In this document: positions 4,732 through 7,589 of the stretch, piece after piece
How the letters are laid out: each line of letters starts with the position of its first letter
How positions within the stretch are numbered: position 1 is the first letter of the stretch
Source of the DNA: an uncultured Verrucomicrobiales bacterium
Lineage (GTDB): Bacteria > Verrucomicrobiota > Verrucomicrobiia > Verrucomicrobiales > Akkermansiaceae
Length of the DNA stretch: 64,000 nucleotides
Assembly: GCA_937928735.1 (NCBI GenBank)
Contig: CALFVF010000012.1
Coordinates: 1 to 64,000, forward strand
Direction: 5' to 3'
The notes under the pieces: model-generated
What the model saw: the letters and a program-made list of their open reading frames with translations, nothing else
The model's database searches: none
What the model was told of the DNA's origin: nothing
Program-made: the position numbers and the translations under genes

Positions 4732-5418
4732 GTGCGGATTGATCGGAGATTAAGGCTGGTTTCAGGCATGTCTCATCGTGAGGTGAGAGCGGCGATTGCT
4801 GCAGGGCGAGTGCAGTGTAATGATCTCGTTGTCACCTCGGGTGATACGCATACGGATGTCTTTATTCGCCTCAGTGTGGATGGCAAGGAGGTGTACCATA
4901 AAGAAGCTGTGTATATTATGCTTCATAAGCCCCCGGGGTACGTGAGTGCGAATAGCGATAGCGAACATCCTACGCTCTTCGCGCTCCTTAAGGGGGAATA
5001 CACAGGTGAGGAGCTCCATATAGCAGGCCGCCTAGATCGCTACACTACGGGGCTTGTTCTGCTGACCAATGACGGACAGTGGTCTCGAGCGATGACGAAC
5101 CCATCCTCAAAAAAACCCAAGGTCTACGAGGTGGAACTTGATGGTGATCTGGAGTCTTCTATGGTCAATGCCTTTGCGGAGGGGTTTTATTTCCCGACAG
5201 AAGGGAAATACACCATGGCGAGTGAATTAGACATTCTCGCGCCTCGTCGTGCTCGCCTTACGCTCTATGAGGGGATGTATCACCAAGTGAAGCGAATGTT
5301 TCACCGTGTGGGTCGAAAGGTGGTGAAATTACACAGAATCTCTGTGGGGCCCTACGAACTCGGGGATTTGGCAGAAGGCCAGTGGAAGCTAGTCTCTGAT
5401 CAGGTGTTCGATGTTTAG
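4732..5418 (+). CDS. rsuA: RsuA/RluE-family pseudouridine synthase
   Basis: The product (228 residues) converts a uridine to pseudouridine in rRNA; RsuA itself modifies U516 of 16S rRNA. The start is GTG, preceded by a GAGAGG ribosome binding site. An S4 RNA-binding domain occupies about residues 1-50 and includes MSHREVRAAIAAGRVQ. The catalytic motif GRLDRYTTGLVLLTND follows near 98-113, its Asp being the nucleophile. A KVYEVELDG strand and a Y-HQVKRMF segment complete the fold. Length matches E. coli RsuA (231). RluE or RluB-type specificity is possible; the family call is firm and the exact site is inferred. Confidence 0.85.
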   Translation: MRIDRRLRLVSGMSHREVRAAIAAGRVQCNDLVVTSGDTHTDVFIRLSVDGKEVYHKEAVYIMLHKPPGYVSANSDSEHPTLFALLKGEYTGEELHIAGRLDRYTTGLVLLTNDGQWSRAMTNPSSKKPKVYEVELDGDLESSMVNAFAEGFYFPTEGKYTMASELDILAPRRARLTLYEGMYHQVKRMFHRVGRKVVKLHRISVGPYELGDLAEGQWKLVSDQVFDV

Positions 5419-5531: not shown

Positions 5532-5870
5532 ATGAAAACAACCATGACAATACTAGCTGCCAGCGCAGCTCTTATGGTGGGTGCTAGTGCTGCACCTATC
5601 TCGTCGTCTGTTGCCGATGTAAACATCGTCGCTGCAGATGAAATGACTAAGACAGTGAATCTCACTGTCACAGGCATGAAATGAGCGGGCTCTTGTAGTA
5701 GAAAAGTGCAGGCTGCACTTAGCAATGTTGAAGGAGTCGTCTCATCAGAAGTGACCAAGGGGAGAGCTGTCGTAACAGCGAAGAAAGATGTGAAAGCAGG
5801 ACAAATGATCAAAGCTCTCAAGAAAGCAGGCTTTGGTGGTTCTGTTGAAAAGAAAGGGAAAAAAGGTTAG
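5532..5870 (+). CDS. Secreted HMA-domain protein with in-frame TGA; candidate selenoprotein
   Basis: Reading from ATG 5532 to TAG 5868 gives 112 residues with a single in-frame TGA at codon 51 (5682-5684). Residues 1-20 are a signal peptide (hydrophobic core ending in GASA). The rest is a heavy-metal-associated (HMA) fold: VNLTVTGMK, then the TGA, AGSCSRKVQAALSNVEGV, and a second half ending AGQMIKALKKAGFGG. The TGA falls where the first metal-binding Cys of GMxC is expected, giving U-AGS-C. The frame is intact on both sides and the HMA consensus continues past the TGA, so decay would have to be very recent. A stem-loop at 5704-5720 fits a bacterial SECIS. TGA is an ordinary stop in neighbouring genes (ABC ATPase, fatty-acid hydroxylase). 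A pseudogene is the alternative. Confidence 0.75.
5704..5720 (+). promoter_or_regulatory. Candidate bacterial SECIS stem-loop
   Basis: AAGTGCA (5704-5710) and TGCACTT (5714-5720) form a perfect 7-bp stem around the loop GGC (5711-5713). The loop begins 26 bases after the in-frame TGA at 5682-5684. Bacterial SECIS elements lie in the coding region just after UGA, with a short apical loop carrying a G in its first two positions at roughly this distance. All three criteria are met here. The stem also encodes the conserved helix residues KVQAAL, so a purely coding explanation is possible. Confidence 0.65.
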
Positions 5871-6167: not shown

Positions 6168-7589
6168 TTACTCAGAGCTTTCTTCAGGTAAGGGGAAATC
6201 CTGAGGTTTACCTCTCTTTCCACCCTTTGTCTTATTTCTTGAGCGAATAGAAAAGACAATGGGAACACCCAGGATATTGTGTTTGTCCCGAATTCGATTG
6301 GAGAGGTACTGCTCGTAGTGCTCATGCATGAGGCGCTTGTCATTGACAAAGAGCACGTAGGTGGGGACGGGAATTGCTGTGTAGCGGTCATTCACGATCG
6401 CTGTCCCATAGAGTAGTTTCACGCGCTTATTGAACTTCTTATGCGTGCCTGGAGGCTTCGACTGGAAGGACTCCTGTAGAAGGCGATTGAGCATACCTGT
6501 AGTGATCGTGTTCTGCGCGGATTCCCGAATCTTTGTGACTTGCTTAAAGACTTGAGAAATATGCTGACCCTCGCGGGCGGAGACACAGGCGATAGGGGCG
6601 TAGCTGACAAAGAAGAGCTCAGTATCAACGAGTTTTTTCACCTTCTCGAGGCGCTGGGTGCGCTCCATGCCTGGGTGGAAGAGATCCCATTTATTGAGCA
6701 CAAGTAGACAAGGTTTATTCTCATTCTTAATGGTGCGAGCAATGGTGCGATCCATGGTGGAGACTCCAGCCTCTAGGTCGATGACTAAAAGGCATAAGTC
6801 AGCGCGGCGAATGGACTTCTCTGTACGCATCGCAGAGAACACCTCCACACTTGTGTCCATTTTCGCGCGCTGGCGCAGTCCTGCTGTGTCGATGAGGGTG
6901 TGGAGCTCACCCTGGAACTCATAGGGGATATCCAGTGCATCGCGCGTGGTACCGGCAATTTCTGAGACAATGGCACGCTCATCATGGAGAATGGCATTGA
7001 TCAGAGAGGATTTGCCTGCATTGGGCTTACCCACAATGGCGATTTTTAGCCCAGCACGAGTGACCTCTGCTTCAGCCTGGGCGATTTCGTCTCGAAATGG
7101 TTTCAGAGAAACATCAATGAACTCACAGAGAGCTCCGAATCCACGGCCGTGTGCCGCTGAGATCGCAATACCATTGCCCAGCCCTAGAGTCGCGAAGTCA
7201 CTGGCGATATTCTCCTGCTCGGCGTGATCAGCCTTGTTAAGAATCAGGCAGACCTCGGGCTTCGCACGTCTGAGCTTTTGGGCGAGTGCCTGATCAATCG
7301 CTGTGAGACCATCGCGCGCATCCACCACAAAGAGAATGAGATTAGCCGTATCCATAGCCACCTCGGCCTCCAGAGTCACTTGGCCTGCGAATCCATCATC
7401 CAGAGTGGCGCCGATCCCCCCTGTATCGATCACCTCGCAGGGGTGCTCGGTGAGAGTGCAGGGGGCTGAGATACGGTCTCGTGTTACACCGGGCTGATCG
7501 TGCACAATCGCGATATTACGCCCAGCTAGTCGGTTAAAAATGGCGGACTTTCCGACGTTAGGACGCCCTACGATAGCTACAGTTGGCAT
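6168..7589 (-). CDS. der: Ribosome-assembly GTPase Der (EngA)
   Basis: Der acts in maturation of the 50S ribosomal subunit. The 473-residue protein has the unique double-GTPase layout: first G1 motif GRPNVGKS at 8-15, DTGG at 55-58 and NKAD near 118-121, then a second G1 motif GKPNAGKS at 187-194 with DTAG and NKWD. The C-terminal third is the KH-like domain, followed by a basic tail (RNKTKGGKRGK). Length is normal for the family (about 440-490). The start is unambiguous because the G1 motif lies at residue 8. It is transcribed alone, convergent with the candidate selenoprotein gene. Confidence 0.97.
   Translation of the reverse strand: MPTVAIVGRPNVGKSAIFNRLAGRNIAIVHDQPGVTRDRISAPCTLTEHPCEVIDTGGIGATLDDGFAGQVTLEAEVAMDTANLILFVVDARDGLTAIDQALAQKLRRAKPEVCLILNKADHAEQENIASDFATLGLGNGIAISAAHGRGFGALCEFIDVSLKPFRDEIAQAEAEVTRAGLKIAIVGKPNAGKSSLINAILHDERAIVSEIAGTTRDALDIPYEFQGELHTLIDTAGLRQRAKMDTSVEVFSAMRTEKSIRRADLCLLVIDLEAGVSTMDRTIARTIKNENKPCLLVLNKWDLFHPGMERTQRLEKVKKLVDTELFFVSYAPIACVSAREGQHISQVFKQVTKIRESAQNTITTGMLNRLLQESFQSKPPGTHKKFNKRVKLLYGTAIVNDRYTAIPVPTYVLFVNDKRLMHEHYEQYLSNRIRDKHNILGVPIVFSIRSRNKTKGGKRGKPQDFPLPEESSE

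Follow-up and report, generated by a model that had tools for sequence, protein, structure and literature searches.

In a 64,000-nucleotide stretch of Akkermansiaceae DNA (contig CALFVF010000012.1, hereafter the window), we identified a gene that very likely encodes a genuine selenoprotein, belonging to a type that has so far not been catalogued. Its UGA codon (5682–5684, forward strand) would almost certainly be decoded as selenocysteine (Sec), directed by a stem-loop at 5704–5720 and by the Sec machinery of the genome, and the product is predicted with high confidence to be an HMA-fold protein whose metal loop, GMKUAGSC, presents UxxxC in place of CxxC. Taken together, an exported small UxxxC HMA selenoprotein with a soft-metal role is the explanation that we consider likely. 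The first-pass annotation of this DNA had proposed a candidate selenoprotein at this place, a proposal now supported by the conservation of the TGA, the stem-loop, the selection acting on both sides of the codon and the sel genes.

An in-frame UGA in the metal loop of a putatively secreted HMA protein

The gene (5532–5870, forward strand) spans 112 codons up to a TAG, with a lone TGA at codon 51 (5682–5684) preceded by GMK and followed by AGSC, exactly as previously annotated, and its frame is kept in relatives. The proposed signal peptide (residues 1–21, MKTTMTILAASAALMVGASAA; 5532–5594) reads as one by eye in the translation, and a lipobox-like N-terminus was found, with a loose pattern, in 45 of the 101 family members with a usable ATG. 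With C substituted for U, the window protein matched the Pfam HMA domain (PF00403) over residues 44–101 (5661–5834) at 28.3 bits, over the gathering cut-off of 24.8, and the part after the TGA scored 27.3 bits to the same domain when taken alone. The TGA is thus located at the first metal-binding Cys of an HMA domain, in agreement with the initial claim. A full HMA consensus around this codon had also been reported; its first metal position stood, but the second Cys (Cys55, 5694–5696) is displaced, so that the loop is UxxxC, one residue longer than the canonical CxxC, which the window protein does not have. Gene callers stopping at TGA would truncate UxxxC HMA genes.

The neighbouring ORFs, outside the system, are one upstream on the forward strand (4732–5418), which we take to be an RsuA-like pseudouridine synthase, and one downstream on the opposite strand (6168–7589), presumably a Der-like GTPase. 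An Rfam scan of the window returned only one element, a tRNA. Since TGA ends 5 of the 42 window ORFs of at least 200 aa, it is an ordinary stop here, as had been stated, and a genome-wide reassignment of TGA was rejected on the basis of this usage and of the retention of TGA at the site.

Searching 60 Akkermansiaceae genomes with the read-through protein returned 31 match rows in 20 genomes, among which 16 (11 genomes, 5 genera) had a TGA, one had a TAA and 14 were stop-free, the aligned TGA members having G-[ML]-x-U-x-x-x-C in common. All 260 Akkermansiaceae genomes were also searched with a profile built from 61 members. An in-frame TGA was present in every one of the best 52 matches (from 41 genomes, scoring 58.3 to 106.8 bits), and inspection placed it at the metal site each time, the motif being UxxxC in 51 of them and UxxC in the remaining match (G586); two of these matches (G058 and G586) showed an additional stop codon of another kind beside the TGA. 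At or below 55.7 bits, the matches listed were mostly without TGA, many being located in frames of 700–870 aa, the size of P-type ATPases, and four lower-scoring rows among them had a TGA (G009, G123, G159 and G430). The last three of these have a CxxC HMA motif, their TGA being located elsewhere than at the metal site. The keeping of the UGA in relatives is accompanied by coding constraint on both of its sides: by a simple counting method applied to non-independent member pairs of 60–97% protein identity, the median dN/dS was 0.24 before the TGA (150 usable pairs out of 167) and 0.23 after it (250 out of 271).

Variants of the loop were observed among the relatives. The G009 relative (L345, G009:C3:592327-592629), a lower-scoring TGA-bearing HMA protein, has UxxC followed by its own hairpin, while the G586 member (L346, G586:C23:5213-5485) associates UxxC with a hairpin whose GTGCAGTCTGCAC stem is shared with the UxxxC members. 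An uncultured Rubritalea (L010/L183, G050:C47) carries two UxxxC HMA domains in one frame, giving two Sec, with the same stem-loop after each of them.

Stem-loop and selenocysteine machinery

Bacterial SECIS elements have an apical loop with a G, located roughly 16–37 nt from the UGA. The perfect stem-loop reported behind the TGA was confirmed: a 7-bp stem (AAGTGCA/TGCACTT, arms 5704–5710 and 5714–5720) starts 19 bases 3′ of the TGA and closes on a GGC triloop (5711–5713) that starts at the 27th nt after it, and this structure is conserved, with some covariation. Its folding energy is unexceptional (z = -1.07, 26 of 200 shuffles folding as well) and adds nothing alone; the weight of the stem as a SECIS comes from its conservation. 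In 14 relatives picked by protein similarity, the stem being ignored in the choice, standard pairs were observed in 96.9% of the cells, vs 92.8% in shuffles (0/500 as high) and 15–49% in slid versions. Both-sided changes occurred at 2 of the 7 pairs (14/500 shuffles as high); the 5 others were invariant in these relatives, and further pair types were no more numerous than in shuffles (196/500).

Codon usage within the arms extends this observation to the 109 members recovered from GTDB with a DNA pattern (see below) that leaves the decisive wobble bases of the stem free. GTG encodes the valine of the 5′ arm in 106 of them (vs 24% elsewhere in the same genes) and GCA the alanine of the 3′ arm in 99 (vs 17%), while 106 have GTC or GGC as triloop. 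All 6 tested pairs, two of which are largely fixed by the pattern, are formed in 92 members, and for the four pairs with free bases 407 of 436 cells pair, vs 21 of 44 in 11 chance matches. The stem is weak in the delta/myxobacterial members (n = 7; GTG in 6, GCA in 1 and the closing pair in 4), for which the SECIS, if any, may have another form. These seven members (L151, L154, L156, L178, L205, L207 and L244) have loops reading GMTULEQC, GMTUPSGC and similar.

The sel genes on which Sec decoding relies were recovered from the genome of the window as regards selA, tRNA-Sec and a Sec-type selD, leaving out selB. The selA match reached 494 bits (cut-off 268), the tRNA-Sec match 59.8 bits (gathering score 47; typed as SeC with anticodon tca by ARAGORN) and the selD match (G000:C18:50248-51174) 373 bits (cut-off 125), so that selA, selC and selD are all present. 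This selD has its own in-frame TGA. More broadly, of the 29 family genomes whose selD exceeds the cut-off, 28 have one in-frame TGA in this gene, so that selD encodes a selenoprotein there too, and the remaining one (G001) has its match divided between two contigs, with the TGA on the N-terminal piece; a comparable hairpin follows the TGA in most of the 26 selD genes displayed (of 29). In the assembly of the window (93.9% complete), no selB model match exceeded its cut-off, and a same-genus SelB query returned low-identity matches only. Among the 60 family genomes sampled, selA was found in 31 and selB over cut-off in 30, the genome of the window being the sole selA carrier without selB, and each of the 6 other genomes sampled from its genus possesses selB. 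The missing selB is probably an assembly gap. Furthermore, the 11 genomes with a TGA protein in the 60-genome search are all among the 31 selA-positive ones (hypergeometric p = 2.5e-4, uncorrected for kinship). In more distant GTDB genomes, chosen at 30 of the 103 family loci, selA was over cut-off in 28 and lacking from two (G624 and G627).

An in-frame TGA within such a short gene, together with a selB that was not found in the assembly, could also be read as a stop standing in place of a Cys codon, either in a pseudogene or through a sequencing error, two outcomes that the first-pass annotation had itself listed as refuting its proposal. Both are ruled out by the retention of the TGA in homologues: it occupies the same site in the 52 strongest family matches (52/52) and in the 109 GTDB members (where the search pattern imposes it), while the stem is conserved and purifying selection acts on both sides of the codon. 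We consequently rejected this explanation, which appears extremely improbable. Only slightly less so is a read-through of the UGA with another residue, or its use mainly as a regulated stop releasing a short secreted peptide. The unseen selB would leave some room for it, but the stem has the geometry expected of a SECIS, the genome encodes selA, tRNA-Sec and a Sec-type selD, and selection after the UGA equals selection before it. The decoding of the UGA as Sec is the reading retained hereafter.

Distribution, rare Cys forms and a second HMA selenoprotein family

When 387 genomes of the phylum were sampled, with the best 12 candidates per genome scored, 95 genomes had a match; among the matches listed, the window's own genome provided the sole UxxxC-family match with a TGA, so the family is patchy in the phylum. 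The other TGA rows corresponded to a second family described below (G000 and G024), plus G123 and G159. Read with the profile, the best 29 other places of this sample displayed CxxC in 28 cases and CxxxC in one (L123, G242:C92:41657-41869). This last protein, from another class of the same phylum, has a TGT at the Sec position (sequence GMSCAVGCVGKV), a signal-like, secreted-looking start and ~ 90 residues, and is devoid of the stem. A Cys counterpart with the odd CxxxC spacing therefore exists and is rare in the genomes searched. Relatives with Cys at codon 51 had been put forward as support for Sec; L123 is the one relative that offers it, and no Cys form was seen in Akkermansiaceae.

The GTDB genomes were scanned with a degenerate DNA pattern fixing G-[MLI-type]-x-TGA-x3-Cys-x3-V-[QR]-[AS]-A, which imposes the TGA and the UxxxC spacing on this set, unlike in the 60- and 260-genome searches. 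The scan produced 120 matches in 114 stretches, including 109 members at 30 bits or more to the family model (106 distinct cores, at 103 loci), some of their contigs overlapping with the 60-genome sample. The 11 matches under 30 bits were set aside as chance matches, one of them (L201, 16.5 bits) being somewhat HMA-like. According to record names, the 109 members are distributed among Verrucomicrobiota (61, including Akkermansiaceae and Rubritalea), Planctomycetota (28), delta/myxobacteria (7), Poribacteria (3) and records with names that gave no assignment (10), and the UxxxC family spans at least four phyla. By record name, a named isolate, Rubritalea profundi SAORIC-165 (locus L184), carries the family.

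A second HMA selenoprotein family, first picked up by the first UxxxC profile, was observed in the same genome (G000:C1:82671-83243, reverse strand; L278:2172-2744, reverse strand; L315). The protein of the window's genome is secreted-looking, with 191 residues, a tandem of HMA domains and two TGAs (GGGUGAAKKV and GLGGUADTN); its HMA score (15.8) is under the Pfam cut-off of 24.8, which a relative (L316, 26.2) exceeds. Matches were found in 51 of the 260 family genomes, 50 of them (one per genome) with exactly two TGAs. The G587 match is a fragment at a contig end, with one TGA, and one more row is a cross-match of the first family. The 30 aligned loci all retain the two Sec, and neither domain has a Cys at the usual second position; an xGUxx-loop hairpin follows the TGAs in most of these loci. 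None of the four members scanned reached an NCBIfam cut-off.

These two families could tentatively be seen as parts of a selenium-based extracytoplasmic system of soft-metal defence or supply, comprising at least two HMA selenoprotein families (UxxxC and two-Sec tandem) that are nearly always Sec-coded, and in which the two selenolates of the tandem may share one ion. Because Cys forms are rare, methods based on Cys/TGA pairs would tend to miss both families. According to the authors of deep-Sep, Cys relatives are abundant for nearly every selenoprotein known and have often been the means of recognising it, and the method of these authors may miss selenoproteins without Cys homologues (PMC12013277).

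Soft metals or redox chemistry, and comparison with known systems

Outside the cytoplasm, the selenolate–thiolate pair of the window protein would bind the ion of a soft metal (for instance Hg(II), Cu(I), Ag(I) or Cd(II)), much like the two thiolates of MerP, and the bound metal would be scavenged or handed to a transporter. We infer this role with some preference rather than with assurance. Against solved structures, the family profile matched 51 distinct HMA-domain sequences, most of which belong to proteins handling copper, mercury or zinc. MerP (1afi, 1osd) was one of the best matches with a single domain, and in the top three chain alignments the family has one extra residue between the two ligand positions. 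In addition, two distant planctomycete proteins, just under the cut-offs for their MerT-like parts, appear to be MerT-like fusions. In L166, a MerT-like part (Pfam MerT 32.3 bits, cut-off 32.9) precedes the Sec-HMA domain, the protein scoring 68.4 bits to a MerTP fusion model (cut-off 180). L168 combines the Sec-HMA domain with a MerT-like part (Pfam 32.8, cut-off 32.9) and with a CopZ N-terminal metallochaperone domain that exceeds its cut-off (108.5 vs 100 bits). The initial annotation had assigned the Sec residue to "a metal or redox site": these putative fusions would favour soft metals.

The genomic context of the family was less informative. Across 103 loci (109 members), the commonest clusters of neighbour genes occurred at 10 loci at most, and no clear metal gene recurred. 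Seven neighbours scanned with Pfam consisted of three hitless proteins, a beta-lactamase-fold protein, a DUF4064 protein, a TPR protein and an RND transporter (L250). RND-type efflux genes lie just upstream of the Sec-HMA gene at two loci (L250:2765-6277, reverse strand, and L219:2-2449, forward strand), where the multidrug and CusA/CzcA models were matched, all under their cut-offs, which does not establish a metal system. Long open stretches upstream of the gene in some GC-rich genomes looked spurious by eye and were discarded, except for the fusions L166 and L168.

Still within a selenoprotein, the UxxxC pair might instead be redox-active, forming a selenenylsulfide that reduces extracytoplasmic peroxides or disulfides, with the HMA fold as a mere scaffold. 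Most characterised selenoproteins have redox motifs, as reported in a 2026 inventory (PMC13188914), and the spacing of nearly all members is unlike that of the metal-binding CxxC. This spacing is however not strict, as UxxC is found in G586 and in the lower-scoring G009 relative, and in the second family of the same genome Sec is retained with no Cys where its partner would usually be. Considering also that the solved HMA domains matched by the profile come mainly from proteins of copper, mercury and zinc, and that L166 and L168 display MerT and CopZ domain fusions, we hold the redox function to be unlikely, and soft-metal binding remains the preferred reading.

Among known systems, MerP (TIGR02052; 1afi, 1osd) is, like the window protein, a secreted single HMA domain; it has a GMxC loop with CxxC and no Sec, whereas the window protein has UxxxC and scored 33.3 bits to the MerP model, far under the cut-off of 92.55. 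The CopZ metallochaperones (NF047957, NF033794 and NF033795) are likewise small HMA proteins, usually cytoplasmic and with CxxC. NF047957 was the best NCBIfam match of the window protein (38.3 bits), although under its cut-off of 85, and the window protein exceeded no NCBIfam cut-off. By their names, the MerT/CopZ fusion-like heavy metal transport selenoprotein (NF045683) and the MerTP fusion (NF033556) associate a MerT-like membrane part with an HMA domain, as do L166 and L168, which reached 65.9 and 61 bits, likewise under cut-off. By contrast, the window protein has no MerT part and matched NF045683 with the HMA end only (24 bits, cut-off 375). The UxxU metal-binding (seleno)protein (NF041115) is also HMA-like with Sec in its metal loop, but it has two Sec in UxxU, according to PMC13188914, instead of one in UxxxC, and the window protein scored 37.2 bits to this model (cut-off 95).

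The family might already have been reported, if the two MerP selenoproteins of the GOS survey were members of it. Table 2 of that survey counts two selenoproteins and no Cys homologue under "Mercuric transport protein MerP" (PMC2398784), and some of the member records have marine names (ALOHA, TMED, ETNP). The comparison is however by name only, the table providing neither motif nor sequence, and the 2026 inventory of 119 families names, in the part covered here, no MerP, UxxxC or PF00403 selenoprotein (PMC13188914). In addition, a full-text literature search, at the level of search listings, returned no description of a UxxxC HMA selenoprotein. Such an earlier report seems rather doubtful, and we regard the family as probably uncatalogued.

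HMA-type selenoproteins are known, through NF041115, NF045683 and the MerP entry of the GOS table. As judged from its sequence, the window protein is by test both a putative selenoprotein and an HMA protein, and by test it is distinct from MerP, NF041115 and NF045683. Beyond what the first-pass annotation could show, the comparisons brought out the UxxxC spacing, the scarcity of Cys forms, a distribution across several phyla, the fusions and, in the same genome, another family with two Sec. With more than 100 members in several phyla, a single Cys form found, and Sec placed at a site of metal-binding type instead of a thioredoxin-like one, the UxxxC family makes testable the use of Sec as a natural ligand for soft metals outside the cytoplasm.
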